From: Gammaproteobacteria bacterium
GTDB lineage: Bacteria > Pseudomonadota > Gammaproteobacteria > Pseudomonadales > Azotimanducaceae
NCBI GenBank assembly: GCA_028821405.1
Contig: JAPPGK010000057.1
Coordinates: 1-33,180, forward strand
Direction: 5' to 3'
Length of the DNA stretch: 33,180 bases
This document shows, piece after piece, positions 4,646 through 31,921 of the stretch; the first letter of the stretch is position 1, and every line of letters starts with the position of its first letter. Position numbers and translations under genes: made by a program. Below the pieces are notes generated by a model. The model was given only the letters and a program-made list of their open reading frames with translations, made no database searches and was not told the origin of the DNA.

Positions 4646-4647
4646 CC

Positions 4648-7738: not shown

Positions 7739-7749
7739 AGACGCTATAG

Positions 7750-8116: not shown

Positions 8117-8281
8117 GATGACCGGGATATTTCAACCGCGATTCCGCCAGCGTCGACAGATCGCAAGCATCGGTCGAATGCGAGTAGCTTTCTTACATAC
8201 CCGATTTGATCGCTTGCAGCTAAACACGCACATCGGCTTCGCGTTCAATCCGCTGATCGTCTCGGATGGGGATGCGTGTCG

Positions 8282-13944: not shown

Positions 13945-14035
13945 TGGCGGAGAGGGAGGGATTCGAACCCTCGATGGGCTATCAACCCATACACACTTTC
14001 CAGGCGTGCTCCTTCGGCCGCTCGGACACCTCTCC
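13945..14035 (-). tRNA. tRNA-Ser (anticodon GGA)
   Basis: Read on the minus strand, the gene begins GGAGAGGTGTCCGAGCGGC and ends GGTTCGAATCCCTC, CCTCTCC, G, CCA. The acceptor arms GGAGAGG (14035-14029) and CCTCTCC pair fully, and the T-arm GGTTCGAATCC is canonical. The anticodon loop CTGGAAA carries GGA, reading UCC and UCU. The long variable arm is typical of serine tRNAs, giving 91 nt with CCA encoded. It lies 8 bp downstream of the SRP RNA and may share its transcript. Its 3' end faces the accessory region, so it is a natural attachment site for the island, but no second copy of the tRNA 3' end is seen in the window. Confidence 0.97.
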
Positions 14036-14043
14036 GGGAGGGT

Positions 14044-14163
14044 CGATGGAGGTGGCGTACCAGCCACACCCCGGCACCCGAAGCCGCTGCGACCGCTGCT
14101 CCCTTCCGGGCCTGACGGGGTTGACAACGGTTCGTCGCGAGGGGACCGATACGGCCACCATCG
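14044..14163 (-). ncRNA. ffs: Signal recognition particle RNA, small bacterial type (4.5S)
   Basis: The minus strand contains the conserved SRP apical sequence GTCAGGCCCGGAAGGGAGCA followed by GCGGTCGCAGCGG, the Ffh-binding helix 8 with its GGAA tetraloop. The 3' part GCCGGGGTGTGGCTGG matches the distal strand of bacterial 4.5S RNA. The ends pair: GATGG at about 14162-14158 and GTGGCGTA-like bases near the 3' end close the terminal stem, giving about 120 nt (E. coli 114). The RNA forms the particle that targets membrane proteins co-translationally. Exact ends are inferred from pairing. The tRNA-Ser follows after 8 bp. The 14164-14246 stretch should hold the promoter, but I see no strong consensus. 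Confidence 0.92.
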
Positions 14164-15105: not shown

Positions 15106-15819
15106 TCATCCGCCCAGCATCCGCTCGCGTCGATTGGCGCGCATGAAGGCGAGCCCCACGACCAGCGCGATGAAGATGGGGATGCCGATGCGGTTCTGCA
15201 CCGTCATGGCGAGGACCGCGGCCGGGTCGGCACTCTGAACGGCCAGTGGATTCCAGAAAGGCGATGCCCGTATGTCGTTGTTGCCGAGGATCAGCAGGTC
15301 GAAGATCAGGACGGCGACGGTCACCATCGCACCCGCGACTTCGCTGCGGAACAACGTGGCAAACGCCATGGAAAGGACGAGGTAGAAGATCGCCCCCTGG
15401 AACGCGCCGTAGAGGGCGACCGGGGGGAACTTCACGAATACGAAGTAGGCGACCAGCGCCAACAGGACTTCGGCGGCGACCAGGATTACCGCGGACGCCG
15501 CAAGTTTCGCCCACCAGACCCGCTGGCAGCCGCCGGGAACCGTGTAGGCGATCTCGAGGCTTCGGCCGTCCATTTCGCCCGCGATGATGCGCAATCCCAG
15601 GATGATGGCGAGCACGGCCATCGGGATGCCCATGAGGCCGATCTGGGCATTGACGTCAGTGAATGGGCCCGATGGGCTGATCAGCTTTTCGACCGCCCGG
15701 GCCGCAAGCCAGAGCAGGGGCAGGAAGATCAGCAGCCAAACCCAGTGGCCGGCAATGGCAAGTCCCGCCAGCCGGATCAGGTCGAGAAATGCGCGCAGCC
15801 GGCGCAGTCGAGCGATCAC
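15106..15819 (-). CDS. ABC-2-type permease, small (237 aa)
   Basis: This membrane protein has about six hydrophobic segments: residues about 19-40, 58-80, 104-127, 136-157, 161-180 and 203-225. It contains the motif GEMDGRSLEIAYTVPGGCQR in the loop after segment 2, the ABC-2 coupling region also seen in the two large permeases of this cluster (ERMVEVLDTRPV and ERMAEVLDARPV). It is probably the membrane partner of the ATPase at the end of the preceding fusion protein. The start is GTG at 15819, with a strong ribosome site (AGGAGGAGA) and a 4-bp GTGA overlap with the fusion gene stop, so expression is translationally coupled. It is the last exporter gene before queF. Upstream extensions of the frame are antisense-like and were discarded. 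Confidence 0.88.
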   Translation of the reverse strand: MIARLRRLRAFLDLIRLAGLAIAGHWVWLLIFLPLLWLAARAVEKLISPSGPFTDVNAQIGLMGIPMAVLAIILGLRIIAGEMDGRSLEIAYTVPGGCQRVWWAKLAASAVILVAAEVLLALVAYFVFVKFPPVALYGAFQGAIFYLVLSMAFATLFRSEVAGAMVTVAVLIFDLLILGNNDIRASPFWNPLAVQSADPAAVLAMTVQNRIGIPIFIALVVGLAFMRANRRERMLGG

Positions 15820-18800
15820 CTTGTCTCCTCCTGCGGCATGACCGGCGCGGGCCGCCCGTGGGTGATGAGCCAGAGATACCCGTCCTGCAATTGTGCATCC
15901 AGTGCCTCGGCGTTGGCCGTCGGCGGTTCGTCGGCGAGGATGCGCCGCACGGTGCCGCCATCGATGGTGGGCGTTTCCTCGGCCAGGATGGCGCCATCGG
16001 GTAGATCGAAGGGGGCATCGGTCGCGAAACGGCTTTCCCACACGAGGCCCTCGGCCGCTTCCGCGAGATCGGACGGGGCGCCGTCGAATACGAGCCGACC
16101 GGTGGAGAGCACCAGTACGCGGTCGCAGGCGACGGCGACATCCTCCACCACGTGGGTCGAGAAGAGCACGATCCGATCCCGCGCGAGGCGTCCCAGCAGG
16201 TTGCGGAACCGTATGCGTTCCCGGGGGTCGAGGCCCACGGTCGGCTCGTCGACGATGATCACCGACGGCAGCCGCAGCAAGGTACGTGCGACGGCGACCC
16301 GTTGGCGCATGCCGCCGGACAAGGTCTTGATCTTGTCGCCAGCCTTCTCGGCCAGGCCGACCTCCTCGAGAAGGCTCTCGACGCGTTCCCGGCGGATGTC
16401 GACGGGCAGTTCGTAGAGCGCGGCGAAGTAGCCGAGGTATTCGCGCGGCGAAAGTCCCCCCGGCAGTCCGGCGTCCTGGGGCAGGTAGCCCACCCAACGC
16501 GCCAGGACTCGCTGGATCTTGGTCAGGCGGACGCCGCCGAGATTGATGACGCCGCGGGTGGGATCGAGGATGCCGGCCAACTGGCGCAGAAGCGTCGTCT
16601 TGCCGGCGCCGTTCGGACCCAGGATGCCCACCATGCCGCGCTCGACCCGGAACGTCACCTCGGTCAGGGCGAGGACCGGTTCGATGGGCAGATCCAAGCC
16701 GCCGATCCGGCGCGCCAGCCGACGTAGCCACGTGCGGGGGTGGCGGAACGGACCGGCGAGCGCGCGTTCGCCGATGAGCCCCCGCTGCTGGCGCACCGCA
16801 CTGCGGCGGATCACTTGGCCGATGAGGATCAGCACGCCGGCGAGGATCGGCAACAGCAGGAGGACTCGGGGTTGTTCGCCGTCGAGCCGCGGCAGCACGA
16901 CCATCCAGGCGACAAACGCCGCGAGGACGCCCCACGGCAGGAACACGCGAAATGCCGTCTCCAGCCATCCCGGCCGGGCCTCGTCCTCCGTGGGATGCCG
17001 AGCGCGGCGGATTTCCGTTGCGAATCTGACGAAAAAGGCGGCAGCGACCATCCAGAGGACGAGCATCCAGCCGGCGCTGCGTACCTGTGACGACAGCAGG
17101 AGCGGCGCGGCGGTCAGGATCAGGTACGGTCCAAAGCGGCCCATGGCATCGCGCCACGCGAAGGCCCGCCGAATAGCCGTGCCGCCTTCGCGCCGGATGC
17201 GATCCGCGAAGTCGCGGGGTGCCCGGATCGCTTGGCGGATGGGACCGGGCATCCCGTAGATCTTCTTCAGGTTGCGCACGTCGAGCACCGGCGGGCCCCC
17301 GGATGTCGCGGGTTCCACCAGTTCCGGGCGCCGGAAGACCAGCACGATGACCGTGAGCAGGCTGGCAAGGACCAGCCAGAAGATCACGAACAGCCACAGC
17401 CACGAGGTGACGGTCTCGGTCTGATAGAGCCACACCAACGGGGCAAACGTTCCGCCCAGCAAACCGAGGACCAGCCAGGGACCGACCCGGCCGAAGAGTT
17501 CATCGAGTCGTCGCAGGAAGATGTAGCAGACCGGGATGACCAAGAGGGTGAGCAGCGTCGCGGTCAAGATGCCGCCGATGACCACCGTGGCGAAGGGGGG
17601 CCAGGTCTCGTTCTCCTGTCCCGTGCTCAGGGTGAGGGGCCACAGCGCCGCGATGGTGGTTGCCGCGGTCATCAATACCGGGCGCGTTCGTTCACGCACG
17701 GACGCCAACGCCGCGGCGCCCGCGGACCAGCCGGTCCTGACCCGATGTTGCATCCGATCGACGATGAGAATGGCGGGGTTGATCGCCAGACCCACCACGA
17801 CGACGACACCGATCCCCGACGTCACGTGGACGGGCGTGCCCGTCACGACGAGGAGCCAGGCCGCGCCGATTACCGCAAGCGGGACCGCCAGCAGAACGAG
17901 CCAGGGCAGCATCAGCGATTCGAAGGCCACCGCCAACACCAGCAGTACGAGCAGGCCGGCCCATAGGCCGAATTCCGCCACGGTGCTGACACCCTCTTCT
18001 TCCTCCACGGCCTCCACCGCGTAGCCCTGCGGACGGGGGGCCGATCGTATGGCCGTGGCGATCTTCTCGTCGAGGGTATCGCGGGCGGGCCCCGATTCCG
18101 GTGCCGCCGCGTCAAGGTGGTAGAAGACGCTGGTTTCGCGGCGGCCATTGCGGTGAACGATCGCCGGCGTCGGCGGCATCTGGCGGATCGTCGCGAGCGA
18201 CGAGACCGTCGTGACCCCCGAGTCCGTGTGCACGCGCAATCGGCGTAGGTCCTTGAGGCCATCCGGCTCGCGACCGTTCACCCGTTCGACGAACACCGGG
18301 ATCTCCCGACCCGACGGCAGAACATAGAGTCCGGCGTTCATTCCCCCCCGACCGGCGATCCGCAAGCCCGGCAGTACTTCGTCGACGGTGAGTTCGAACG
18401 CCTCGAAGCCACGGCGGTCCGGTTGCACCCAGACCTCGTCGTCGCCCGGTGGGGCGGATTGCCAGGCTCGCGCCACGTGATCGACGGCCTCGAGGCGTAT
18501 CACGAGGTCGTCCGCCAAGCGTTCGAGGACCTGACTCTCGGGCCCGGAAACCGCGATCTCCTCGGGACCGCCGCCCGCCAACTGGACCCCCCGGCCGCCA
18601 CCCCGGCTCTCGGCGCGTCCCCGACCGCCGCGCTCTTCCCCAGGCCGGGACACGTCGATGCCCCGCACCCGTTTCGCCGCCTCCTCCACCACCTGCCGGA
18701 TCCGGGACACGGTGAGGTCCTCGGGACGCTCGTCCAGGTCCACCAGGTTGACCGTCAACAGTGCGCGCTCCTGGTTGATGCTCGCGGTGACGTTGTCGAC

Positions 18801-20612
18801 GCCCTCGATGGCCAGCGCCGCCTGTTCCAGTTCCGCGACCGCCTCGGCGACCGCTTCGAGGGATCCCGTCCCCTTGAGCGACCGGGCGCTGAAGGCAACG
18901 CTGTCCGCGAAATCGGGATCGGGGGACGGCTGGTTCGACAGCGCGATGGGCATCGCGAATAGCAGGGTCGCCACCACCGCGACCCCGGTGCCCGTCAACC
19001 AGGACGACGGACGGCGCATGGCGTTGGCGACGAGTCCCGAGAACAGGATGCGTAGGGGGTCGGGAGCACGTTGACCGCCGGCCTTCGCCCGGGCTTCGCG
19101 TTGACGTGCGACCGCGCGGCGCGCGGCCGGTGCCGCCAGCCGGTGGGTCAACACCGGGACCAACCCGACGGCAACGAGCATGGATGCGCAGAGCGGGAGC
19201 AGGAACGCCGGGATGAACTCGCCGGCGATGGACCGGACCAAGACCGAAAGATCCATGATGCCCGCCGGCAACATCACGATGGCCGTCGTGGCGGTGGCGG
19301 CCAGGATGGCGCGGATCGTGCGTTGCAGACCGATGCGCGCCGCCTGGGGCGGATCGAGACCGCGTTCGAGGCGCCGCAGAACCGCCTCGTAGACGACGAT
19401 GCTGTTGTCGATCAGAAGACCGACGGACAGCCACAGGCCCCCCAGTGTGAACTGGTTCAGAGACAGCCCCATCAAGTAGAGCAGCGCCAGCGCGCCGAGC
19501 AGGCTGACCGGCACGGCGACGCCCACCACGGCGACCGCGCGCCATTGGCGCAGGAACAGGAACAGCACGGCAAGGGCGATGAGATAGCCGGAGAACCCCA
19601 GACGCGCCAACCGGCCGAGACTCTCCTCCACGGCTTCGGCGGCGTCGTCGCCGATCACCAGATCCACCCCCATGGGTGCGACCTCTTCCCGGAGTTCCGC
19701 CACGCGTTCCCGGAGTTCCCGGCCGAGGCGAACAAGGTTCGCGTTCTGTTCCTTGTAGACCACGATGCCCACGGCTTCCTCGCCGTTGACCCGGAACGAC
19801 GACTGTCGCGGCGCAAAGCCAAGTTCGACCTCGCCCACGTGTTTGACCTGGGTGGGTCGGTCCGGCGCGATTCGCGTCTCCCCAATCGCCGCAAGGCTCT
19901 CCGGTCGGCCATCCACGATGACTGCCAACCGGCCACCTTCCGACTCGAGGGCACCGACATAGCGCATACTGCCCGCACGGCGCGCCACCGCCTCGATCAC
20001 CTGGGCCGGCGTGACCCCGGTCGCCGCCGCCCGCGCCATGTCGACGTTGACGATCACCCGGCGCGCGGAACCGCCCCTCGCGTTGGCCTCCCCGACACCG
20101 GATACCGCCGCAAGACGGGGTGCCAAGAGTTGGTCTGCGAGGTCATAGAGGGTGTCCCGGTCGGCATCGCCCAGGACGTGGATGTCCATCACCAGGCTGC
20201 CGAACTGGGCGGTTCCCGACTGGAACGAAAACACACCTACTGAGGTGCCCCGTGGTTGCCCACGCCGGATATCGGCAGCGATGCGCTGCAGTTCGAGCTC
20301 GCGCACCTTCATGTTGGTGTCCGGCTCGAAGCGGACGCGGTAGCTACCGCCCCCGCCCTGCACCTCAGCCCAGCTCTCCGCCACGTCGGGCATCGCCGAG
20401 ACCCGGGCATGCAGCGGGAGGAGGATTTCCCGCTCGACGACTTCCTGTTCGCTGTTCGGCCGGAAGTAGCTGACGAAGAGCGTATCGCCCTCCAACGGCG
20501 GCATGAGTTCCAGGGGAATGCGTTGGTAGGCGACGATGCCCAGCACGACGAAGCCCACGAAGATCATGCTCACCGCCAACGGGCGGCGGACGGGCAGGTC
20601 GAGGAGGCTCAC
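15816..20612 (-). CDS. RND efflux pump fused to an ABC ATPase (1598 aa)
   Basis: Residues 1-1036 are a complete HAE1-like RND pump. TM1 lies at 12-30, two periplasmic porter regions follow, TM4 contains GLLIDNSIVVYE with D402, TM10 contains GLAINPAILIVD, and TM12 ends near 1034. Two further membrane segments (1042-1064, 1070-1093) lead to an ABC domain. Its first strand is PPVLDVRNLKKIYG (1107-1120). About 190 residues with four probable TM segments (1160-1176, 1180-1196, 1223-1241, 1249-1267) interrupt it, and it resumes at VLALTEVTFRVERG. Walker A is GPNGAGKTT 1332-1340, Q-loop YLPQD 1376-1380, signature LSGGM 1431-1435, Walker B VIIVDEP 1451-1457 and H-loop H1487, all intact. A Gly/Arg-rich stretch occurs at 660-683. 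Start is GTG 20612, giving the normal RND N-terminus MSLLDLPVRRP. The frame is continuous, so the fusion is real unless the assembly is wrong. Substrate unknown. Confidence 0.95.
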   Translation of the reverse strand: MSLLDLPVRRPLAVSMIFVGFVVLGIVAYQRIPLELMPPLEGDTLFVSYFRPNSEQEVVEREILLPLHARVSAMPDVAESWAEVQGGGGSYRVRFEPDTNMKVRELELQRIAADIRRGQPRGTSVGVFSFQSGTAQFGSLVMDIHVLGDADRDTLYDLADQLLAPRLAAVSGVGEANARGGSARRVIVNVDMARAAATGVTPAQVIEAVARRAGSMRYVGALESEGGRLAVIVDGRPESLAAIGETRIAPDRPTQVKHVGEVELGFAPRQSSFRVNGEEAVGIVVYKEQNANLVRLGRELRERVAELREEVAPMGVDLVIGDDAAEAVEESLGRLARLGFSGYLIALAVLFLFLRQWRAVAVVGVAVPVSLLGALALLYLMGLSLNQFTLGGLWLSVGLLIDNSIVVYEAVLRRLERGLDPPQAARIGLQRTIRAILAATATTAIVMLPAGIMDLSVLVRSIAGEFIPAFLLPLCASMLVAVGLVPVLTHRLAAPAARRAVARQREARAKAGGQRAPDPLRILFSGLVANAMRRPSSWLTGTGVAVVATLLFAMPIALSNQPSPDPDFADSVAFSARSLKGTGSLEAVAEAVAELEQAALAIEGVDNVTASINQERALLTVNLVDLDERPEDLTVSRIRQVVEEAAKRVRGIDVSRPGEERGGRGRAESRGGGRGVQLAGGGPEEIAVSGPESQVLERLADDLVIRLEAVDHVARAWQSAPPGDDEVWVQPDRRGFEAFELTVDEVLPGLRIAGRGGMNAGLYVLPSGREIPVFVERVNGREPDGLKDLRRLRVHTDSGVTTVSSLATIRQMPPTPAIVHRNGRRETSVFYHLDAAAPESGPARDTLDEKIATAIRSAPRPQGYAVEAVEEEEGVSTVAEFGLWAGLLVLLVLAVAFESLMLPWLVLLAVPLAVIGAAWLLVVTGTPVHVTSGIGVVVVVGLAINPAILIVDRMQHRVRTGWSAGAAALASVRERTRPVLMTAATTIAALWPLTLSTGQENETWPPFATVVIGGILTATLLTLLVIPVCYIFLRRLDELFGRVGPWLVLGLLGGTFAPLVWLYQTETVTSWLWLFVIFWLVLASLLTVIVLVFRRPELVEPATSGGPPVLDVRNLKKIYGMPGPIRQAIRAPRDFADRIRREGGTAIRRAFAWRDAMGRFGPYLILTAAPLLLSSQVRSAGWMLVLWMVAAAFFVRFATEIRRARHPTEDEARPGWLETAFRVFLPWGVLAAFVAWMVVLPRLDGEQPRVLLLLPILAGVLILIGQVIRRSAVRQQRGLIGERALAGPFRHPRTWLRRLARRIGGLDLPIEPVLALTEVTFRVERGMVGILGPNGAGKTTLLRQLAGILDPTRGVINLGGVRLTKIQRVLARWVGYLPQDAGLPGGLSPREYLGYFAALYELPVDIRRERVESLLEEVGLAEKAGDKIKTLSGGMRQRVAVARTLLRLPSVIIVDEPTVGLDPRERIRFRNLLGRLARDRIVLFSTHVVEDVAVACDRVLVLSTGRLVFDGAPSDLAEAAEGLVWESRFATDAPFDLPDGAILAEETPTIDGGTVRRILADEPPTANAEALDAQLQDGYLWLITHGRPAPVMPQEETR

Positions 20613-20739: not shown

Positions 20740-23700
20740 TCAACGATCCCCCTCCCCGCCGCGTTGCCACGCCAGCCGGTCGAGCAGCAGATACAGGCAC
20801 GGGAGGACGAGCAACGAACCCAAGGTCGACGCGACGATGCCGCCGATGATCGTCATCGCCATCGGCGCCCGAAGCTCGGCCCCCTCCCCGCCGGCGAACA
20901 CCAGCGGTGCCAGGGCCAAGGCGGTGGTCAAGGTCGTCATCACGATGGGACGAAGTCGAATGCCCGCAGCGCCCGCCAGCGCCGAAACCCGATCCTGGCC
21001 TTCGGCCATGAGCTGACGGGCGGTGGCGAGCAGCAACACCGCGTCGTTCACCGCGATGCCGGAGAGCACGATGAGTCCCAGCATGGCCATGACGCCAACG
21101 GGCTGCCCCATGGGGACCAGCGCGACGGCGACGCCCACCAGGGCAAGGGGTATCGCGGCCAGCACGGTGATCGGCTGCAACAGCGACTCGAAGGTGCCAG
21201 CCAGCACCATGAGCACCAGGATCAGCGCCAACAAGCCGGCCAGGCGCAGTTCGTCGAAGGTCTGCGCCCGTTCCTCTTCCTGTCCGCGCAGCCGCACATG
21301 CGTACCCGGCGGCGCGGAGGTATCGCCGATCGCGGCGGTGACGGCGGCCACGGCTTGGGCCTGGGTGAACCCGTCGGCAAGCTGAGCGGTCACCTGCGCG
21401 ACCCGACGCTGGTCGCGGCGGAAGATCTCCCGCGCCCCGTCGGCCTCTTCGAAACTGGCCACTTCGCCGAGCGCGATGGGACGCCCTCCGCTGCCCAGGA
21501 ATTCCACGTCGGCCAACTGATCCCGGCGTGGCGAGGGTAGGCGCACGTTGACGATCCGTTCCTCATCGCCCAGGGACAGCCGCGTGACCTCCAGTCCGTC
21601 GAGATTCGCCGCCAACACCTGCGCCACGGTGTTGAGGTCGACGCCCAGCGCATCGGCCATGGCGGGGTCCAACGCGACGCGCAACTCCCGGGGTCCACCT
21701 TCGAAGGACGACTTGACGTTCCAGAGTTCGGGCAGGCCAGCCAGTCGATCCCGGATCGTGCCGGCACCTCGGCGCAGGTCGTCCAGGGATTCGCCGGCGA
21801 TCTCCACCACGATCGGCGGGCCACTGGCACCGAGGGCATCCGTCAGGGCGGAACGGGCGATTTCCCACTGCACCTCCGTGTCCGGCAACGCGTCGAGTTC
21901 GCCCGCCAGCCATGTCGCCACCTGTCGTCCGGTGGGACCCTCGGAGGTCATTCGCGCGATGACGCGGGCGGTGTTCTCCTCGGTCAACTCGCTGCGGATG
22001 GAACGGCCGTCCTCCGGAAGCCTGCCCACCTCCGAGAGCGTCGCGGCGAGGGTGCCGTCGGCAGCCACGGTGCCGCCGGCGGCCTGGGCGATGAGCGCTT
22101 CCACGCTGGCCGCCGCCCGGGCCGTGGACTCCACACGCTGCGCCGAGGGCCCGACCAGGCGCACCGAGAACTGGCGCGGATCCGACGGGGCCAGGAGCTC
22201 GGTACCGAGTTTCAGCAGAAGCGCCACCGCCACCGCCACGATGCCGGTTGCCAGGAGTACGACCGTTGCGGGCCGTTTCAAGAGCCGGCCCACGAATGTC
22301 TCCAACGCCGTCCGCGCCCGGGAAGCGGCTCGCTCGGTCGCCATCGAGGAACGGGAAGCCCGGGGCAGGAACCAGCGACCCAGCGCCGGGATCAGAAACA
22401 CGGCAACGGCAAGCGATGCGAGCAGGGAGACAACCACGGTGAACGCGATGCCGTCGATCAGTCGCGCGGCCAATCCTTCCACGAACAGCACGGGAAGGAA
22501 TACCACGCACGTGGTCAGGGTGCTGGCGGTGATGGCGCCCGCGACTTGCCCGGTTCCCCTCGACGCGGCGAGATCGGGCGCGTCGCCCAGTCCCAGGCGC
22601 CGGTACATCGACTCTACGACGACGATCGCGTTGTCGACCAGCATGCCGGCCCCCAGGGCAAGGCCGCCCAAGGTGACGATGTTCAGGCTGTGTTCCGCGA
22701 AGTTCATCGCGAACAACGCCGCGAGGATCGAGACCGGCACGGCCGCGGTCACGATGAGCGTCGCGCCGGCGGAACGCAGGAACAGGGCCAGGACCAGCAC
22801 GGCCAAGGCCACGCCCGCCCCGGCCGCGATCTTCAAGTCGTCCAGGGCATCGGTGATCAACTTGGCGTCGTCGGCGATCTCACGTACGTCGACGCCCGGG
22901 AGATCATCACCGAGCCCTTCGAGAGCCTTGCGTACCTCGGCGGAGACCTCCACGGTGTTGGCGCCGGCTTCCTTGTAGACGGCGACACCGACGCCTTCGA
23001 CACCATCCACCAGCACCAGGTGGTCGATTTCGGCGTTCACCACCTCCACGGTGGCAAGGTCCGAAACGCGCACCGCCTTGCTGGCACCGGTGGAGTCCGA
23101 GGTGTAGCGGACCACGACATCCGCAACGTCCTGGGCGGTCCGGTAGCGCGCTACGCCGCGCACCTGGAAGACCTGGTCGCCCTCCTCGAGGGTCCCGGCC
23201 TCGATATCCACGTTCTGGGCACCCACCCGGGAACGGAGCAGAGCGAGCGAGACGCCGAACGCCTCGAGACGGTAGCGGTCCGCCGAGACGCGGATCTCGA
23301 TGTCACGGCCCCCGGTTACGCGCGCCTCCGCGATGCCGACGAGTTGCTCCAGCGCGGGCGCCACCTGCCGGCGCACCAACTGACGAAGCTCGGCGAGATC
23401 GGGTTTCCCGGACGGTGCCACGAGGCCCAGGGTCAGAATCGGCGATTGACGCGGATCGAAGCGGCGAACCAGGACCTCGTCCACCTCCGGGTCGCCTTCC
23501 ATCGCCCCGACCGCCTTCTGCACGTCCACCAGGGCGAGATCGAGATCGGCATCCCAGTCGAACGTCACCGTCGTCACCAGCCGACCGGTTCGGGCCACCT
23601 GGACGACTTCCCGGCTACCCCGTACGGTGGTCAGCCTGCGTTCGACGGTCTGGCCGTAAAGGCGCTCCATCTCCGTCGGCGGCCGGTTGCCGGATTGGAT

Positions 23701-23856
23701 CGATACCACCACCGTGGGGCTTTGCAGGTCGGGCAGGAGGTCGACCGGCAGCTCGCGCCAGGACAGTGCGCCGACCAGGGCCACGGCCAGCGCGACCACG
23801 GTCACCGCGACGGGTCGGCGTACGGCAAACGCGGCGGCGGACTCAAACGCCGTCAC
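20740..23856 (-). CDS. RND efflux pump, HAE1-like (1038 aa)
   Basis: This is a full-length RND permease (AcrB 1049 aa) with the usual two-fold layout: TM1 at 13-31, a large periplasmic loop, TM2-6 at about 345-490, TM7 near 533-552, a second periplasmic loop, and TM8-12 in the last 180 residues. TM4 reads GAGMLVDNAIVVVE with D408, matching the first Asp of the AcrB pair while the second is Asn. TM10 reads SGIAVNDAVLLLA, so the AcrB Lys is absent. Both are common in this branch of the family. It should use the proton gradient to export a substrate captured from periplasm or inner membrane. Start is GTG 23856 with ribosome site AGGGAGAT, 18 bp after the adaptor stop. With the RND-ABC fusion downstream it may form a mixed trimer, as MdtB/MdtC do; that is inference. 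Confidence 0.96.
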   Translation of the reverse strand: MTAFESAAAFAVRRPVAVTVVALAVALVGALSWRELPVDLLPDLQSPTVVVSIQSGNRPPTEMERLYGQTVERRLTTVRGSREVVQVARTGRLVTTVTFDWDADLDLALVDVQKAVGAMEGDPEVDEVLVRRFDPRQSPILTLGLVAPSGKPDLAELRQLVRRQVAPALEQLVGIAEARVTGGRDIEIRVSADRYRLEAFGVSLALLRSRVGAQNVDIEAGTLEEGDQVFQVRGVARYRTAQDVADVVVRYTSDSTGASKAVRVSDLATVEVVNAEIDHLVLVDGVEGVGVAVYKEAGANTVEVSAEVRKALEGLGDDLPGVDVREIADDAKLITDALDDLKIAAGAGVALAVLVLALFLRSAGATLIVTAAVPVSILAALFAMNFAEHSLNIVTLGGLALGAGMLVDNAIVVVESMYRRLGLGDAPDLAASRGTGQVAGAITASTLTTCVVFLPVLFVEGLAARLIDGIAFTVVVSLLASLAVAVFLIPALGRWFLPRASRSSMATERAASRARTALETFVGRLLKRPATVVLLATGIVAVAVALLLKLGTELLAPSDPRQFSVRLVGPSAQRVESTARAAASVEALIAQAAGGTVAADGTLAATLSEVGRLPEDGRSIRSELTEENTARVIARMTSEGPTGRQVATWLAGELDALPDTEVQWEIARSALTDALGASGPPIVVEIAGESLDDLRRGAGTIRDRLAGLPELWNVKSSFEGGPRELRVALDPAMADALGVDLNTVAQVLAANLDGLEVTRLSLGDEERIVNVRLPSPRRDQLADVEFLGSGGRPIALGEVASFEEADGAREIFRRDQRRVAQVTAQLADGFTQAQAVAAVTAAIGDTSAPPGTHVRLRGQEEERAQTFDELRLAGLLALILVLMVLAGTFESLLQPITVLAAIPLALVGVAVALVPMGQPVGVMAMLGLIVLSGIAVNDAVLLLATARQLMAEGQDRVSALAGAAGIRLRPIVMTTLTTALALAPLVFAGGEGAELRAPMAMTIIGGIVASTLGSLLVLPCLYLLLDRLAWQRGGEGDR

Positions 23857-23874: not shown

Positions 23875-24960
23875 TCAGGATCCGACGACCCGAATCCGGG
23901 CGCCGTCGGTCAGGGTCTCAAGACCCCGCACGGCGACCCGGTCGCCCACGGCGACGCCGTCGAGGACTTGGACCACGTCGTCATCGCCCAATCCCAAGCG
24001 GATGTCCCGGCGACTGACCCGCTGGCCGTCGAGAACGAACGCCACCGATTTCCCCGCCCGATTGGCGATCGCGTCCCGGGACAGCACGACAACGTCCGCT
24101 CGTTGCTCGACCACCACGATCACCTCCACGAACATGCCGGGGCGCAGCAGTCGCTTCTCGTTGGCCACCGAGACCTCGGCGCGGAAGGTGTGCTTCACGG
24201 GATCGAGCATCGGCGACAGGCGAATCACCTCGCCGATGAACGACTCCTCGAAGGCGTAGTGGCGGATTCGCGCCGCGAGGCCCACTTCGACCCGGGCGAG
24301 TTCCGGCCCGATCAGGTCGATGTCCGCTACAAGCTCGTCGAGCGGCGCAATCTCTGCCACCCTGAATGCCGCTCGGACCAGTTGGCCGTCCGCTTGCGGG
24401 CGACCGTCGTTGTCCCTAGCCAAGCGGAGGATCGTACCGTCGATGGGGGTCTTCAGCGTCGCCTTAGCCTGGTTGAGCATGCTGAGTTCGAAGCTGTAGA
24501 GCGCGGTCTCGTAACGCTCCTCCGCCTGTTGGAGATCCTCTTCTTTTCCGAGATTCGCCTCATATAGTTCCCGCTGCCGCTCAAGCTGAGCTTCCGCGAC
24601 CTCCAGGGCCTGACGCGTACTCTCAAGGCGGGCGTGCAGGCGGGCGTCCTCGCCGGTAACCCGGGCCACCACGTCGCCCGCCGAGACGCGCATCCCCTCG
24701 GCCAATCGCTGTCCCTCGGCGTTCCGGGCAACCTGCAACAGTCCCGGCGTTTCGATGTCGAGGGTCACGATGCCCGTCGGGCGCAGCGTGCCGGTGGCGA
24801 CCACCAGATCCTCAACGGTTCCCGTATCGACATCCTCGACTTCGATGGGCACGCTGAACTCGGCATCCGGCTGCGACATCGGCGGCGCGCATCCACCGGC
24901 CGCCGCGAGCAGACCAATCGCCAGCACATGCCCGCCGATTGCGTTCATTCGTTGCTTCAT
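23875..24960 (-). CDS. Periplasmic adaptor (membrane fusion) lipoprotein, RND type
   Basis: Adaptors of this HlyD/AcrA class bridge the inner-membrane pump to an outer-membrane channel. The 361-residue protein starts with a lipoprotein signal (MKQRMNAIGGHVLAIGLLAA then AGGC), predicting cleavage before C24 and anchoring by lipid. Residues about 106-166 form a charged helical hairpin (LESTRQALEVAEAQLERQRE and following). The flanking halves of the lipoyl domain include VSAGDVVARV and ATLKTPIDGTI, followed by the beta-barrel (PMLDPVKHTFRAEVSV, LRPGMFVEV) and a membrane-proximal domain ending GDRVAVRGLETLTDGARI. ATG 24960 overlaps the previous gene's TGA by 4 bp (ATGA), tying it to the ABC-2 fusion gene, and the RND pump follows after 18 bp. 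No TolC-like channel gene is found in the window. Confidence 0.95.
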   Translation of the reverse strand: MKQRMNAIGGHVLAIGLLAAAGGCAPPMSQPDAEFSVPIEVEDVDTGTVEDLVVATGTLRPTGIVTLDIETPGLLQVARNAEGQRLAEGMRVSAGDVVARVTGEDARLHARLESTRQALEVAEAQLERQRELYEANLGKEEDLQQAEERYETALYSFELSMLNQAKATLKTPIDGTILRLARDNDGRPQADGQLVRAAFRVAEIAPLDELVADIDLIGPELARVEVGLAARIRHYAFEESFIGEVIRLSPMLDPVKHTFRAEVSVANEKRLLRPGMFVEVIVVVEQRADVVVLSRDAIANRAGKSVAFVLDGQRVSRRDIRLGLGDDDVVQVLDGVAVGDRVAVRGLETLTDGARIRVVGS

Positions 24961-27900
24961 CGGTCCTCCACCGAACGCCAGCGTACCGCATCGGCAATCA
25001 CCGGCGACCCCGAGGTCTGGTTGGACACCACGAGGCTCGCTTCGCCCGCCGGCAGGGAGAACTCGCCGAGATCGTTCCAGCCGACCGATGCGGCCTCGGC
25101 ATCGAACTCCACCGGTATTTCCTCACCGTCGGTGACGATCTTCATCCCGTAACTTCCCTTGGCACCACTCAGGATATTGGTCTGTATCGTGACGCTGAAT
25201 CCGCCCCGTCCGGGCGTTCGGTCCGGCTCGATTTCAGGCAGGTGGTAGTCGACGCGCCATCGACCGCCCTGCGGCAGTTGCGCGGTGAAGCGCGCCGATG
25301 CGCCGCCGTCGCCCGGGAAGGCACTTGCCGCGGTGTGGCGATACCGGCCCCACGTCCCCGGCACCTCCATGCGCATCCAACCCCTTGGCGGCGTCGTGAA
25401 CGGATTGTAGACAGGCAGACCCTGGTCGATATCCGTTTCGCCCGTCCACCAGCTTTCCTGCAGGCCGTAGCGTTCTTCGTCGTCCGGGGAGGCGTAGGTG
25501 ATCGTGAAGCCCGGATCGAGATCGTCCACCACGATGCCGGGTTCCGGCGGGGGTCGCCATTGGCTTTTCCGGCTGCCGTTCAGAGGTTCGGCATCCACCG
25601 CCGCCTTGGGGTCGACATCGGGAAGCGCAAGGCGGAAATCGTTGCGATTCAGGGACAGGTACGGCGAGATCCAGACCGTTCCCGGCGGCGTATCGACCAC
25701 CAGCCCGGCCTCCACAGACTCGCGGCCACCGATCGGGATCGGGTCGGTCCACGAGCGGATCGGCGATTCGCTTTCCGATACCGCGCCCACACGTACCAGT
25801 CCCGGCGTCGGCTCGCCGTTGTGGACGTGTACACGGACCTGGTAGCGCGGCTCGCCGCGTTCCCCGTCCTTCAAGCGCAACACCTCCGGTGTCGACGCGA
25901 CAAAGCCCGGCAACTGGGCATCTCCCAGCCAGTCACCGAGTAGCGCTCCGAGATCTACACCGGTCGCGGCAGCCACGGCGTCGAAGTCCTCCGCCGTGAA
26001 GTTCCTGCCGGCGTGGCGCCGCCGGAGTTCCGCCAGGAACTCGGCCACGATGTCGCGCCCCAAACCGTCGACAATCGACTTCGCCACGGCCGGTGCCTTG
26101 AGGGACAACACATCCAACGCGCCTACGCCGTGTTCAGCGGGATCCAGCGTGTCGAGCGGCGTACCCAGCGCACGGCTCCACACCGATGCACGCTTCGGCG
26201 CCCCGTCGGCACCGATGGTAATCGACAACGCGCCACCGCCGCTTACGAGCCCTGCAATCAACCGGCCCATCGTCTCGTTCATGCTGGAGACCGTGGAAAA
26301 CGTGCGGGGCGAGAAGTAACTGCCAGCCTCGCGGTTGTAAAGCAACCGCACCATCAGTTCATGGCAGACGTAGTCCAACGCGATCGCGCCCCGGCCATGT
26401 GCCCCGGTCTGAAACTTGAGAAAGTTGCGCGCGACGCCGTCGTGCAAGTTGCCGCCGCTGAAGTCCTGCCGGAAGAACTGCTCCAAAATGGCGATCTTGA
26501 TGCGGGCCCCCGCGCCATCGGCATTATCGGTATCGTCGGGGAGCTGACCCACCCGCCGCAGGATCCCCATCGCCGTGTCGAAGCGCGCGGTCGGCAAGCC
26601 GTATTCGCGTAGCAGCATGATGCCGGGGAGCGCTTGCACCGTATCCATCCGCCAGCCCCCGCCGAACACGCGCAGCCGCGCGGGCACCTCGACCAGGCTC
26701 AGGCCCCCGTAGGGATAAGCCAATCCCGCCTTGCCCGCGGCCGCCAAGATCTCCCCGATACGCTCTTCCACTTGGTCGATGGCATCGGCGAAGTGCACCA
26801 GGTTGGAACCGTGTCCGGGAAATAGAAGGAGTTCGAACGCTATGTCCGCAACTTCCAGATGACGGCGCTCGAACCGGGACGCCAGCAACGCGACCTCGGG
26901 TACGGGTGCGCTCGGGGCAAATCGAAACCGCCCCTCGCCCAACTCCTGCCGCCGCCCGGGTCCGGCGACAAGCCAATCAGGCGGTACTTCCACATCGAGT
27001 TCGACGTTGAAGAAATCGCGTCCGTAGCGGACCGGATCGTCACTGCCCGTGGCCGGTCCCGGCAAGGGCATCCAGCGAACCGTGGGCATCAGGGCCACGA
27101 ATCGGGGGGCGAACACCGCCGCCTCCGTGCCCAGGAGAACGACATTGCCCTGTTCCCCCTGCACCAGGTCCATGTCCAGTTCACTGTCGAGGTACCCGAA
27201 CGCGTCGTCCGGTACGCCAGCCGCCTTGACGGCCAACTCGACGCGTTCGCCCGGACCGAGCGACCGGGGCAGTGGCACCCGCAAGATCCCCAAGTCATGC
27301 GTGTATTGCGTTGCCACGCCGTCGAGCAGGAGTTCCGCGACTTGGAGCCCCGGATTGAAGCTGAACTGCAACTCGTCCATGGGTTCCGTCGCGTCGAGCC
27401 TGTAGACCAGGTCGAGGTCGAGGCGCCGTCCCGGATCGATGGCAATACTGCCCTGGACGAAGTCGAGGTCGGCCCGGGGCTCGTCCTGCGCCGCGACCTG
27501 GGCTGCGATCCATTGCGTGCGTTGCTCGCGCGCGTTCGACGCATCCACCACGATGGCACCGATGCCGGCGCTGGCCAACCCCGCGAGGGCGGCGGCAAGA
27601 CCTAAGCGAAGGCCCCGGCCTTGGCCATCGCTGCGGGGGTGGAGTGCAGCCGCGAAGACAATGAACGCCCCTGACAGGATCAACACGGAGACCCGCTGCA
27701 GGATCAGCGCGCCGTCGGCGAATTGCGGCAGCATGTCCGATCCGGTGGCCAGATAGGCCTGGAAGCTTGCGAGCCCAGGCGCCAGATAGAACGGCGTCTC
27801 CCAAGTTCCCCAGAAGTAGACGCCGAACAGGCCGAGGGCGAGAAGGACCACGATCAGCCGGTTGCGGATCGTCACCGCCAGCAGAACCACCAGCGATCCC

Positions 27901-28460
27901 CACAACGCGAGGACGGGGATGGCGTCAAGCAACAGGAAGCTCGTCAACGACACCGGTTCCAAGGTGTCGCCGCCCCACCAGTTGAAGGCCTTCGCCGTGA
28001 TTCCAAGTAGTTGGATCAGTCCCATGACGACTGCCACGGCCAGCCAGAGGACGAAGACCAAGCCGGTCAGGCGGCCAGCCAGCAAGTTCACGGTACCGAC
28101 CGGTCGCGCGTCGAGCACCTCCGCCATCCGTTCCCGCTGGTCCCGGCTGCGGATGTCGAAGGCGAGAAAGACCATGCCCACGACCATCACGATGACCATC
28201 GTCATGCCGATCGAGGACACGAGCACGCGGGGTCCGAACGACCCGAACGTGGACACGAATCCCGAGGCCGCGTGCATCAAGGAGTACTGAAGATAGGTCA
28301 GCATGCCGAGCAGCAAGGTCAGCGCGACGAACACCCAGGTCCGAGCCAAGCGACGCGCCGCACGCATCTCGGCGAGCGCGACCGCGAAGAACTCCCGGAG
28401 CAGACTCGAGGCCTGGACGTTCCCGGCACCCCTGCCCTGGTATCCGCTGCGTTCGGCCAC
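24957..28460 (-). CDS. ABC-2 permease fused to inactive M1-peptidase-like and golvesin-like domains (1167 aa)
   Basis: Residues 1-305 carry the ABC-2 permease: hydrophobic segments at about 43-60, 79-101, 131-154, 173-198, 201-218, 252-272 and 285-305, with the coupling motif RDQRERMAEVLDARPV at 107-121. About 330-860 resembles an M1 aminopeptidase ectodomain, but the GAMEN-type region reads FGGGWRMDTVQ (599-609) and the zinc helix reads CHELMVRLL (699-707). HE is kept but the second His is lost, so no peptidase activity is expected. Residues 975-1163 form a golvesin/Xly CBD-like module (GIVVDDLDPGF, later VGWNDLGEFSLPAG and VIADAVRW). The ectodomain probably sits in the periplasm. Start is GTG 28460, with AAGGAG ahead and 5 bp after the paralogue's stop. 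It is probably energised by the ATPase gene at the operon head. Confidence 0.9.
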   Translation of the reverse strand: MAERSGYQGRGAGNVQASSLLREFFAVALAEMRAARRLARTWVFVALTLLLGMLTYLQYSLMHAASGFVSTFGSFGPRVLVSSIGMTMVIVMVVGMVFLAFDIRSRDQRERMAEVLDARPVGTVNLLAGRLTGLVFVLWLAVAVVMGLIQLLGITAKAFNWWGGDTLEPVSLTSFLLLDAIPVLALWGSLVVLLAVTIRNRLIVVLLALGLFGVYFWGTWETPFYLAPGLASFQAYLATGSDMLPQFADGALILQRVSVLILSGAFIVFAAALHPRSDGQGRGLRLGLAAALAGLASAGIGAIVVDASNAREQRTQWIAAQVAAQDEPRADLDFVQGSIAIDPGRRLDLDLVYRLDATEPMDELQFSFNPGLQVAELLLDGVATQYTHDLGILRVPLPRSLGPGERVELAVKAAGVPDDAFGYLDSELDMDLVQGEQGNVVLLGTEAAVFAPRFVALMPTVRWMPLPGPATGSDDPVRYGRDFFNVELDVEVPPDWLVAGPGRRQELGEGRFRFAPSAPVPEVALLASRFERRHLEVADIAFELLLFPGHGSNLVHFADAIDQVEERIGEILAAAGKAGLAYPYGGLSLVEVPARLRVFGGGWRMDTVQALPGIMLLREYGLPTARFDTAMGILRRVGQLPDDTDNADGAGARIKIAILEQFFRQDFSGGNLHDGVARNFLKFQTGAHGRGAIALDYVCHELMVRLLYNREAGSYFSPRTFSTVSSMNETMGRLIAGLVSGGGALSITIGADGAPKRASVWSRALGTPLDTLDPAEHGVGALDVLSLKAPAVAKSIVDGLGRDIVAEFLAELRRRHAGRNFTAEDFDAVAAATGVDLGALLGDWLGDAQLPGFVASTPEVLRLKDGERGEPRYQVRVHVHNGEPTPGLVRVGAVSESESPIRSWTDPIPIGGRESVEAGLVVDTPPGTVWISPYLSLNRNDFRLALPDVDPKAAVDAEPLNGSRKSQWRPPPEPGIVVDDLDPGFTITYASPDDEERYGLQESWWTGETDIDQGLPVYNPFTTPPRGWMRMEVPGTWGRYRHTAASAFPGDGGASARFTAQLPQGGRWRVDYHLPEIEPDRTPGRGGFSVTIQTNILSGAKGSYGMKIVTDGEEIPVEFDAEAASVGWNDLGEFSLPAGEASLVVSNQTSGSPVIADAVRWRSVEDR

Positions 28461-28465
28461 GGTCT

Positions 28466-31400
28466 CTACTCCTTGTTGCTCGCGAAGCCGGCGACGGGGC
28501 GCCAGCGGATGGCATCGGCCAAGACGACGTCCCCGGACGTGCGGTTGGAGACGACGAGACGCACCTGGCCCTTGGGCAGATCGAACCTTCCTAAGTCATT
28601 CCAGCCCATCTCGGCCCGCGTTGCGTCGAACATGATCGACCGACGCTCGCCGTTGCCGAACTCCAACACCATGTCGTAGTCACCCAGCGCGGCGACCATC
28701 GCCTGGGGTTGCCCTCGCAATCTTACGCCGCGTTGCGGTTGGCGGACCAACGGCATGTGGTAGTCAAGTCGCCACTCGCCGCCGCCGGGAAGTTCGGCCG
28801 CGAATACCGCCGTGGCATGGCCGTCCGCCGCCGCGGCCCGGGCCACCGTATGCCGGTACTTGCCCCAACTCGAAGGCACTTCCTGCCGACGCCACTCGCC
28901 ATCGTGGCGCCCGTTCAACGCCAGGGCCGACAGGTAGTCCGGGATCCCGTGATCCATCTCGCCTTTCAGGTGCGGGGGCTCGGACACGAAATCGCCAATG
29001 CGGAAGCGATCGCCGCGGCCATTGCGCTCCACGACGAATCCGGCGTCCAAGTCGTCGACCACGATGCCGGGCTGCTTCGGCGGTTCCCAGTCGCTGGGCC
29101 GGCTCCCCGTATAGCCCTCGACCCCCGGTTCGTTCGCCTCCTCCACTGCGAGTTGGACATCGCGGCGGTTCAACGACAGGTAGGGCGCCATCCAGACTTG
29201 CGCGATCGGGCTTGCCGTGACCAGCGAGACTTCCACCGACGAATGGCCCCGGACACGGACGGGCTCGCTGGACAGCGTCCCGCGTCCTTTCGTCTTCCGC
29301 CACCGCGCGGTCACGTAGCGCAGGCGCAACAGACCCGGCACGGGCTCGTCGTTGCGAAGCTGAACCCTCGTCTCGAAGCGCGGACCGCCACGCGCGGTGT
29401 CGGGCAAGCGCACCGTCCTCGCCGACGACGCCAGAAATCCAGGTAAACCGGCGTCGTTCAGCCAGTCGCCGAGGAGCGGCCCAAGGTCTCCGCCGACGCG
29501 ATGCGCCGCCGCGTAGAACGCATCTGCATCGTAGCTTCCGCCGCCGTGCTCGCGCCGCAGTTCGCGCAACAACGCCCCGGTTCGCTCCCGTCCCAAGGCA
29601 TCGTAGATGGAGCGCGCGATCGCACCGCCCCGGAGTGCCAGCGCCTCTAGGACGCGGTCTGGGTCATGTTCGGGATTGAGTCCCGCGAGCGACGTACCCA
29701 GGGCCAGGTCCCAGACCGCAGGCCGGTTGGCAACCGCGTCGCGGATTCCTTGCGAGCCGCCACCGATTCCGAGCGCCTTCGATGCGCCTAGGGCGATACG
29801 ACCCAGCGATGTACTCCCGTCCGGCAGGAACACGTGCGCGGAAAAGAAGCCGGCCGTGCGGTTGAGCACCAGATCGACCAGTTCCTCCACGACGAACTCC
29901 AACGCGGTCGCCGCCATGCCGTCCGCCTCGACGCCGGTCTGAAACCGCAGGACGTTTCGAGCCATACCCACAAAGGGGTCGCCACCCGAGTAGTCGTTTC
30001 GAAGATATCGTTCTAATGCCTTGATTCTAAACTCCGCCCCATCGCTTTCGGGCACCTCCTTCTCCCCATCGCGAAACGCCACGTCGAACCGGGCGGTTGG
30101 GAAACCGCGTTCGCTCATCAGCAGGATGCCCGGCTGCGCCTGCACCGTATCCATGCGCCAGCCGCCGCCGCATCGGCGCAGGGTGGCCGGTACCTCGACC
30201 ACGCTGAGACCGCGATAGGGATACTCGATCCCGGCCTCGATGGCCTCGCCGAGTAGCTCCTCGAGGCGTTCGCTTAAGGGCTCCACGGCATTCTCGAACA
30301 GCGTCAGGTTGTCGAGATGCCCGGGGCTCATCAGGAGTTCGAGTTCGACACCGGCCACGGCAATGGCCCGTCGTTCGAACCTCGACGCGATCAGCGCCAC
30401 GGCCGGCACCGGCGAGGTCGGATTGAAACGAAACTCGCCCGCGCCTACGGCCCGGCGCAGTCCCGGCCCTGCCACCAGCCAACCGGGCGGCGCTTCCACC
30501 GTCAGGTCCACTGTGTAGAAGTCTCGCGCAACGCGCCCCGGGTCTTCCCTGCCGACATTGGCGCCGGGGCTCGGCAACCAATGCACACCGGGCATCAGCG
30601 CCACGTAGTCGGCATCGTAGATCGAGGCGTCCCGGCCGAGGTATAGCGTCGCGTTGCGCCGACCCGTGCTGTCCGCGCCAAGGTCGAAGGCACTGTCGAG
30701 GTAGGCGAAGGACGGGTCCGGCACCCCCGTCGCCAGCATATCCAGTTCGAAACTGCCATGAGTCGGCGGCGTTTCGATGCGGAGCAGGCCATCCTCGTGT
30801 AGGAACGGTGTCGGCACCCCGCTGATCTTCAAGCTCTCGACCGCCATCCCCGGGTTGAAGCTCATGACCAGCTCGCGGTCTTCCCGGGATCTGGGCCTGG
30901 CCGCGAGGCGCATGCTGATGTCGATGGTGAGTAGCCTTCCCGGTGCCACGTGGACGGTGCCGGCGATATGCTCGATATCGGCACCGCCCTTCGCGACGGC
31001 CGCCTCGTGGACGGCAAGCCAATGATCGCGGGCCTCCACACCCTCACGCGCATGGAGGAAAAGGCCGGTCATGGCCGCCGCACCGACTCCGACGAGCGCC
31101 GCAGACACCGCGAACCGGGGCGAGGAGCGGCGGCTGTCCAAGCGCGGGTGAAGCGCCGCCGCGGCGAACACGACGCCAACCGCCAGCACGACCAGGGCGA
31201 GCCGATGCAGGACGGTCGCGGCATCGGCCACCCGGGGCAGGAGATCCGAAACCAGGTCTCCGTACTGGGTCGGACCCGCCAAATGGGCCAGGTAGAGCGG
31301 TTGGGATTGTGACCACAACATCCAGATCCCCAACACACCGAACGCCGACACGGCAACGAGTAGCCGGTTGCGCAACAACACCGCCAGCAGGATCACCAGG

Positions 31401-31921
31401 GCTCCCCACGCAAGGAACATGGGAAGTGCGTCGACGAACAGGAACGTCGCGAGCGACGCGGGCTGCACCGGTTCGGTCGGTGCCCCGACGGCGCCGCCGA
31501 CGATGCCGAAGGTCTGTACGAGGAAAACGAGGACAAGCGCGGGGATGCACGCCGTGACCACCAGGCCGAGCAGCCTTCCGAGAAGCAACTCCACGTTGGA
31601 TACGGGTCGGGTATCGAGAACCTCCACCATGCGCTCGCGCTGGTCTCGACCCCGTACGTCGAAAGCCAGGAAGATCAATCCGAAGAGGAATACCAGGACC
31701 AGCGGCATGCCCACGATGGATATGACGAAACGCGGCGCGGGAAACTCGGAGACCGGCGACATCCGACTGTCCAGCGCGTGCTGCACTCCGCTGCCTACGA
31801 AGAACAAGAAGGAAACGCCGACCGCCAGCAGGCTGAATCCCCACGTGCGAACCTGGCGCCGAGCCGAGCGCATCTCCGCGAGGGCAACCGCCCAGACTGC
31901 GGCGCAAGACGAGACCCGCAC
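28466..31921 (-). CDS. ABC-2 permease fused to inactive M1-peptidase-like and golvesin-like domains (1151 aa)
   Basis: A tandem paralogue of the following gene, with the same domain order. The permease part has segments at about 27-45, 65-87, 114-140, 158-183, 187-203, 236-257 and 270-290 and the motif RDQRERMVEVLDTRPV at 92-106. The M1-like ectodomain (about 320-840) has CGGGWRMDTVQ at 584-594 where GAMEN is expected. The zinc helix is EFVVEELVDLVL at 675-686, with no histidine, so it is further decayed than its paralogue. The golvesin-like domain spans 953-1143 (GIVVDDLDAGF, MGWNDLGRFDLPKG, VVLADAIRW). The two genes likely form a heterodimeric membrane pair. Start is GTG 31921, 45 bp after the ATPase stop, with a weak ribosome site, so the exact N-terminus is less sure. 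Such proteins are often labelled permease/M1 aminopeptidase, which overstates the second half here. Confidence 0.9.
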   Translation of the reverse strand: MRVSSCAAVWAVALAEMRSARRQVRTWGFSLLAVGVSFLFFVGSGVQHALDSRMSPVSEFPAPRFVISIVGMPLVLVFLFGLIFLAFDVRGRDQRERMVEVLDTRPVSNVELLLGRLLGLVVTACIPALVLVFLVQTFGIVGGAVGAPTEPVQPASLATFLFVDALPMFLAWGALVILLAVLLRNRLLVAVSAFGVLGIWMLWSQSQPLYLAHLAGPTQYGDLVSDLLPRVADAATVLHRLALVVLAVGVVFAAAALHPRLDSRRSSPRFAVSAALVGVGAAAMTGLFLHAREGVEARDHWLAVHEAAVAKGGADIEHIAGTVHVAPGRLLTIDISMRLAARPRSREDRELVMSFNPGMAVESLKISGVPTPFLHEDGLLRIETPPTHGSFELDMLATGVPDPSFAYLDSAFDLGADSTGRRNATLYLGRDASIYDADYVALMPGVHWLPSPGANVGREDPGRVARDFYTVDLTVEAPPGWLVAGPGLRRAVGAGEFRFNPTSPVPAVALIASRFERRAIAVAGVELELLMSPGHLDNLTLFENAVEPLSERLEELLGEAIEAGIEYPYRGLSVVEVPATLRRCGGGWRMDTVQAQPGILLMSERGFPTARFDVAFRDGEKEVPESDGAEFRIKALERYLRNDYSGGDPFVGMARNVLRFQTGVEADGMAATALEFVVEELVDLVLNRTAGFFSAHVFLPDGSTSLGRIALGASKALGIGGGSQGIRDAVANRPAVWDLALGTSLAGLNPEHDPDRVLEALALRGGAIARSIYDALGRERTGALLRELRREHGGGSYDADAFYAAAHRVGGDLGPLLGDWLNDAGLPGFLASSARTVRLPDTARGGPRFETRVQLRNDEPVPGLLRLRYVTARWRKTKGRGTLSSEPVRVRGHSSVEVSLVTASPIAQVWMAPYLSLNRRDVQLAVEEANEPGVEGYTGSRPSDWEPPKQPGIVVDDLDAGFVVERNGRGDRFRIGDFVSEPPHLKGEMDHGIPDYLSALALNGRHDGEWRRQEVPSSWGKYRHTVARAAAADGHATAVFAAELPGGGEWRLDYHMPLVRQPQRGVRLRGQPQAMVAALGDYDMVLEFGNGERRSIMFDATRAEMGWNDLGRFDLPKGQVRLVVSNRTSGDVVLADAIRWRPVAGFASNKE

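Follow-up and report, generated by a model that had tools for sequence, protein, structure and literature searches.

The fusion gene and its family

The stretch of DNA analysed here (33,180 nucleotides, positions 1 to 33,180 of contig JAPPGK010000057.1, assembly GCA_028821405.1; hereafter the window) comes from a gammaproteobacterium of the Azotimanducaceae and carries a gene in which a resistance-nodulation-division (RND) permease runs on into an ATP-binding cassette (ABC) ATPase. As judged from its sequence, this one chain is an AcrB-type RND permease joined to an ABC ATPase domain, with membrane helices threaded through the ATPase. The gene, its parts and the permease gene that follows it are arranged as follows:

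15816..20612, minus strand: RND-ABC fusion gene, 1598 aa, GTG start, no internal stop
17505..20612, minus strand: RND permease part, residues 1-1036; ACR_tran match, with D402, N403, N945 and R977 at the AcrB-relay positions
17334..17483, minus strand: two extra transmembrane (TM) helices after the RND part, residues 1044-1093, predicted by AlphaFold2 and hydropathy
17253..17294, minus strand: putative first strand and A-loop of the nucleotide-binding domain (NBD), residues 1107-1120; K1117 and Y1119 in 50/50 sequences
16677..17252, minus strand: predicted four-TM insertion inside the NBD, residues 1121-1312, from alignment, AlphaFold2 and hydropathy
16053..16676, minus strand: rest of the NBD, residues 1313-1520, from Pfam, NCBIfam, conserved motifs and Foldseek
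15106..15819, minus strand: ABC-2-like permease of 237 aa, with a GTG start that overlaps the fusion stop codon

Pfam recognised ACR_tran at residues 5-1033 (E 1.9e-132) and ABC_tran at residues 1317-1458 (E 1.3e-27), both beyond the model cut-offs. The solved structures closest to residues 1-1036 are RND efflux pumps, and those closest to the C-terminal part are human ABCA proteins and bacterial ABC ATPases. By homology, the RND part has 12 TM segments; its hydrophobic stretches are visible in family-averaged hydropathy, unresolved into 12. The cut-offs of the NCBIfam multidrug RND subfamilies were not reached (best 372.8 bits against 1250). All catalytic motifs of the NBD are present, namely Walker A (1332-1340), the Q-loop (Q1379), the signature (1432-1438), Walker B (1452-1456) and the H-loop (H1487).

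A collection scan with residues 1040-1598 gave 84 relatives, and 80 loci were kept; 51 of these (L038-L088) form the fusion family, and for the remaining 29 the similarity, 28-42% identity, falls mainly in the NBD. Once identical sequences had been merged, 50 of the 53 distinct family sequences, our own included, proved open from the RND part through the NBD, in agreement with the single continuous chain that an earlier sequence-only reading of the window had drawn from the 1598-residue frame. Excluded from the 50 are L071, which has a single in-frame stop around residue 700, L014/L077, a single sequence whose frame changes around residue 1400, and L087, which meets a contig end and has the remaining part of its gene on another contig; included though incomplete are L027/L051 (a single sequence, on a contig that starts at residue 516) and L086 (its match starts at residue 140). 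The broken frames of L071 and L077 represent either decayed copies or assembly errors.

Class and phylum searches added 19 further loci (L119, L128-L140, L180, L181, L184-L186) in which, over the length that each contig covers, the frame from RND to NBD has no stop; seven are contig-cut, one of which, L186, begins only at residue 1136. The short frames from the Acidobacteria-phylum search (L130/L187, L132/L179, L135/L182, L137/L183, L180, L181 and L186) all begin at a contig end, and for two of its 22 matches (G521 and G549) only the listed 1620-aa frames were read. Separate RND and NBD genes, the arrangement that the sequence-only reading had set against a true fusion, were seen in none of the 53 distinct sequences and 19 further loci; the frame-broken homologues are the two named above.

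A whole-protein search covered 58 related genomes, our own included. Since the scan had been queried with peptides of residues 1040-1598, this is the one search that could have revealed fusions free of the insertion. The fusion was present in 20 of the 58 genomes and gave a single unbroken match in 18 of these; G001 is frame-broken, with a sequence identical to L077, and G021 is divided between two contigs. Beyond these relatives, the insertion region was found in 2/369 genomes of the class and 1/299 of the phylum, the window's own genome being one of those counted in each case. In the phyla of two other loci it was found in 3/247 genomes for a "Deltaproteobacteria" locus and in 22/297 for an Acidobacteria locus (starting genomes included), and no plasmid copies were found at E <= 1e-50. 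Since the same arrangement is kept across dozens of genomes, the fusion is real and not an accident of assembly. The median identity to the window protein is 75% for the NBD, 49% for the RND part and 35% for the insertion, the NBD being the most and the insertion the least conserved of the regions compared. Literature searches aimed at an RND-ABC fusion, judged on titles and abstract openings and with subscription journals largely outside their coverage, showed no such fusion among the papers listed; a search on split NBDs did list two papers. By sequence, the parts belong to known families; their combination, for which we found no description in the literature, looks like an undescribed hybrid pump.

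The divided ATPase domain and its membrane insertion

The strand ending in K-x-Y-G (1117-1120) is parted from the second strand by an insertion in 50/50 sequences, and the stretch 1105-1317 measures 199-218 residues, with the same junctions, in 50 of the 53 distinct sequences. K1117, Y1119, the Walker A Lys, the Q-loop Gln, the signature SGG, the Walker B Asp-Glu and the H-loop His are invariant (50/50), which bears out the earlier impression that the catalytic motifs are intact.

Three kinds of evidence bear on the assignment of the upstream strand. The NCBIfam GldA, PQQ and LptB models matched the fused NBD from model positions 17, 15 and 17, against positions 8, 2 and 4 for the unsplit NBD of P0005, a stand-alone ATPase of the same operon. 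When the 14 residues from 1108 were put before the NBD, its score against a profile of 21 NBDs from its own genome rose by 10.1 bits, the best gain of 263 windows; with this profile, the best of nine first-strand windows exceeded every non-overlapping window in 43 of 50 sequences. AlphaFold2, run on residues 1040-1598 with 49 sequences, gave a model with a mean pLDDT (predicted local distance difference test) of 82.3 and a pTM (predicted template modelling score) of 0.69, containing a strand at 1110-1119 and the next strand at 1313-1323 (residue numbers are model positions plus 1039). Taken as a whole, this model retrieved ABC ATPases in Foldseek (best 4yer, E 3.1e-17), among which LptB chains reached a template modelling score of about 0.8 by target length. 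The model starts, the profile gain and the predicted strand together suggest that residues 1107-1120 belong to the NBD. Both a first strand and an A-loop aromatic residue were found for the NBD sheet, through the conserved K-x-Y (50/50), the profile gain and the strand prediction. The sequence-only reading had likewise placed this strand in the NBD, upstream of the insertion, and the predicted fold has a strand at 1110-1119.

Family-averaged hydropathy shows four peaks within the insertion (1169, 1192, 1230 and 1259) and an additional two-helix stretch (1047-1090) between the RND part and the first NBD strand. The AlphaFold2 model places the insertion helices at 1153-1176, 1180-1205, 1216-1243 and 1253-1276; together with the insertion seen in 50/50 sequences, these predictions agree with the earlier proposal that an even number of TM segments, four, divides the NBD. 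The segments expected in the cytoplasm are longer and carry a mean of 2.8 to 10.4 Lys/Arg, against 0.1 to 0.6 in the short outer loops. This positive-inside pattern would therefore leave the first strand and the NBD on the same, cytoplasmic side of the membrane, again as the sequence-only reading had argued.

The insertion returned nothing convincing from the PDB or Pfam (best E 0.074 and 0.0016). In 49 aligned rows its P1226-W1227 and R1269 are invariant, which suggests that it is more than a spacer. Near-invariant residues of the junction 1036-1107 include F1040, R1042, G1044, W1046 and W1073. The idea that the six extra helices form an ABC-2 half-permease in cis was rejected, as the profile of this region is unlike that of the permease (hhalign probability 0.4%).

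Proton relay, permease and partner genes

The relay positions of the RND half were aligned through the RND chain 7b8p. We take D402, N403, N945 and R977 to be the counterparts of AcrB D407, D408, K940 and R971, with AcrB numbers that in part follow a review. Among the sequences covering each site, the equivalents of D407 (49/49) and R971 (50/50) are kept, whereas those of D408 (49/49) and K940 (50/50) are changed to Asn, and the canonical AcrB proton relay is thus incomplete. Substitution of one relay residue abolishes transport by AcrB, according to a review (PMC8277102). Partner RND genes read V-D-N at the first relay site (F-V-D-N in L078) and A-V-N-D at the TM10 site where the pattern covered it. 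Free RNDs that have no NBD (L002, L028-L031) also carry D-N and N-N, and other free RNDs (L004, L032, L034, L036, L037) are AcrB-like, with D-D and K-N. Since NBD-less RNDs share the Asn signature, the reduced relay need not stem from the gain of an ATPase, and the signature neither proves nor excludes proton drive; the suggestion that a lost relay marks the replacement of protons by ATP is weakened accordingly. As read from these residues, proton drive of the RND half is possible. The two energy sources that the sequence-only reading had ascribed to the chain find only partial support: two of the relay residues are kept and the other two are always Asn.

The 237-aa permease was modelled with seven helices of at least 19 residues, the first of which we take to lie along the membrane. 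A homologue adjoins the fusion in 46 of the 51 family loci, with an aligned start -90 to +135 nt from the fusion stop; of the remaining five, L049, L050, L071 and L074 lie on contigs that end too early and L046 has the permease in two frames. Among the 50 structural neighbours listed for the permease model, a manual count gives 30 of ABCG/ABC-2 type, all with weak E-values; the listed neighbours include ABCG, NosDFYL, KpsM and Wzm entries. The permease gene is followed by QueF (14247-15086); a QueF homologue also lies directly downstream in L038-L042, L044 and L077 and a few kb off in L043 and L081.

On its other side, the fusion gene is preceded by these genes:

20740..23856, minus strand: partner RND permease without NBD, 1038 aa
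23875..24960, minus strand: periplasmic adaptor of RND type (membrane fusion protein), 361 aa; 148.7 bits with TIGR01730, against a cut-off of 94.9
24957..28460, minus strand: large membrane protein (P0003), 1167 aa; Golvesin_C at the C-terminus
28466..31921, minus strand: large membrane protein (P0004), 1151 aa; sub-threshold ABC-2 N-terminus and Golvesin_C
31967..32950, minus strand: stand-alone ABC ATPase (P0005), 327 aa, uninterrupted NBD; 39% identity to the fused NBD

The two large membrane proteins share 44% identity over their length, and scans of the window proteins turned up no outer-membrane channel family. The partner RND lies directly upstream of the fusion in 36 of the 51 loci and is absent there in 12, three contigs being too short. 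It was searched for in 11 of those 12 genomes (L062 was left out), and 10 have it elsewhere, at 58-63% identity; other RNDs of these genomes are at most 31% identical to it. Five of the ten separate partner blocks were read, and all five hold an ATPase, a large permease, an adaptor and an RND. Across the 58 related genomes, the partner (57-100% identity) occurs in 20 of the 20 with the fusion and in 0 of the 38 without, four of which show RNDs of 28-31% identity above the 1e-100 threshold and the rest none. The two linker helices (1047-1090), the accompanying partner RND and the conserved gene modules go beyond the sequence-only reading.

Elsewhere in the window, positions 2816-12898 hold a defence-like island with a DNA methylase, a ResIII/DEAD helicase, a protein matching Schlafen/AlbA_2 below threshold and a 1538-aa NO VEIN/sacsin-type protein. 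This island is bordered by a tRNA-Ser(GGA) and a bacterial small signal recognition particle RNA, side by side at 13945-14151. On visual inspection, two small adjacent frames at 13047-13791 resemble a toxin-antitoxin pair of PIN type.

A proposed mechanism, its rivals and known systems

An ABC ATPase works as a dimer, so that the three NBDs of an RND homotrimer do not fit. An NBD that needs a dimer and a permease, an RND that needs a trimer, an overlapping permease gene and a partner RND lead us to propose a conserved natural fusion of an RND with the ATPase of an ABC-2 exporter, through whose NBD the exporter would be tethered to a mixed RND/adaptor conduit. We give this reading about an even chance of being right. 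The downstream permease would be powered by the fused NBD, the two forming an ABC-2 exporter dimer of the ordinary kind, and this unit may carry a substrate, perhaps amphipathic or lipid-like, through the inner membrane or out of it. The RND half would join the plain RND in a mixed trimer, together with the adaptor, and this conduit would take the substrate in the periplasm and hand it outward, the ABC-2 exporter in effect loading the RND. The covalent link and the membrane-pinned NBD could keep both pumps in step. With two fused subunits and a plain one, such a trimer would have exactly two NBDs, as one ABC dimer needs; this ratio would recall MdtB2C, a 2:1 heterotrimer (PMC4462101). In a tighter version, two NBDs on two RND protomers of the 2:1 trimer, each pinned to the membrane by its four-helix insertion, would clamp one ABC-2 permease dimer, and ATP-driven extrusion from the inner membrane and RND-driven passage to the exterior would form a single coupled machine, a hybrid class of transporter; we regard this as somewhat unlikely.

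Several observations weigh against the tethered-exporter proposal or its premises. For the divided NBD, the DrrA model starts alike in the fused and unsplit domains (6 and 5), in 7 of 50 sequences the window at the first strand did not come out on top, and an earlier profile of 16 mixed NBDs gave no first-strand signal. The profile gain hence depends on the reference set, having appeared with the 21 NBDs of the own genome, and it is from the model that we infer the pairing of strands 1110-1119 and 1313-1323 in the NBD sheet. The permease scores below its Pfam cut-off (23.4 against 27.2), matches no NCBIfam model and reaches a best Foldseek E-value of 0.40 with its structure model. As for the partner RND, the fusion-bearing genome G427 yielded no more than a partial match at 40% identity, and in G010 and G029 the partner was seen in pieces; moreover, 15 of the 20 fusion genomes belong to one genus, and the co-occurrence count ignores kinship. 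Finally, composition and conservation are observed, while we infer from the sequences the assembly, ratio, substrate and coupling.

Alternatively, the NBD might drive the RND half directly, ATP hydrolysis replacing or assisting the proton motive force in an ATP-powered RND pump. The Asn residues that invariably stand in for AcrB D408 (49/49) and K940 (50/50), sites whose substitution kills AcrB transport according to the review (PMC8277102), would fit such a pump, as would the high conservation of the NBD (median 75% against 49% for the RND) and the six additional TM helices placed in cis around its first strand. However, the D407 and R971 equivalents are just as invariant (49/49 and 50/50), NBD-less RNDs (L002, L028-L031) carry the same Asn signature, the adjoining ABC-2-like permease offers the NBD an ordinary partner, and three NBDs on a homotrimer mismatch a dimeric ATPase; direct drive is therefore rather unlikely. 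The fusion could also be a tether or assembly device only, with independent RND and ABC modules and a four-TM insertion that merely anchors the NBD in the membrane. Indeed, none of the compared regions is less conserved than the insertion (median 35%), which has no convincing structure or Pfam match, and the fusion-permease pair can be encoded far from the rest of the system. This explanation, too, seems unlikely: separate RND and NBD genes were seen in none of the 53 distinct sequences and 19 further loci, and within the insertion P1226-W1227 and R1269 do not vary among the 49 rows aligned.

Post-translational cleavage or an internal start, yielding separate RND and NBD proteins, is very unlikely: with its first strand ahead of the insertion, the NBD would need the upstream part, and the junction 1036-1107 holds two predicted TM helices and near-invariant residues. 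An assembly or frameshift artefact fusing neighbouring genes might be suspected from the broken frames of two family members, L071 and L077, but it is refuted by the homologues with the same fusion, 50 of 53 distinct sequences sharing the junctions and the 199-218-residue stretch 1105-1317, and we consider its chance practically negligible.

ATP-driven (primary) and proton-driven (secondary) export count as distinct classes. If one conserved chain combines both, it would become testable whether ATP can be coupled to an RND conduit or can power it; such a chain would also show how a dimeric ATPase and a trimeric RND fit together. The proposed tethered exporter resembles HAE-1 RND pumps and MdtBC in its ACR_tran domain (5-1033), the RND adaptor in the operon and two different RND genes side by side. 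It differs from them in that one of the two RNDs bears six more predicted TM helices and an NBD, has Asn at the D408 and K940 positions and falls short of the NCBIfam cut-offs (372.8 of 1250). With ABC-2-type exporters (DrrAB, GldAFG, NosFY and the Wzm/Wzt type) it shares an NBD that, among the ABC models listed, matches GldA and DrrA types best, and a permease model whose neighbours include ABCG, NosDFYL, KpsM and Wzm; unlike in those exporters, the NBD is fused to an RND, and four predicted TM helices part its first strand from its second. Fusions of an ABC-2 permease with an M1 peptidase constitute TC 3.A.1.145 (PMC3924187). P0003 and P0004 (24957-31921) are of similar length, and P0004 has the sub-threshold ABC-2 N-terminus; on the other hand, both stand outside the fusion chain and gave no M1 peptidase match in Pfam or NCBIfam, nor did P0003 in the PDB.

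Insertions within ABC NBDs have precedents. The coiled coils of SMC and Rad50 proteins interrupt the domain, and neither these nor the insertion of CFTR are known to cross the membrane. In CFTR, a regulatory insertion lies near the N-terminus of NBD1 (PMC9825563). The insertion described here differs from both in being predicted to cross the membrane four times, and it would show how far the ABC fold tolerates membrane-crossing insertions.

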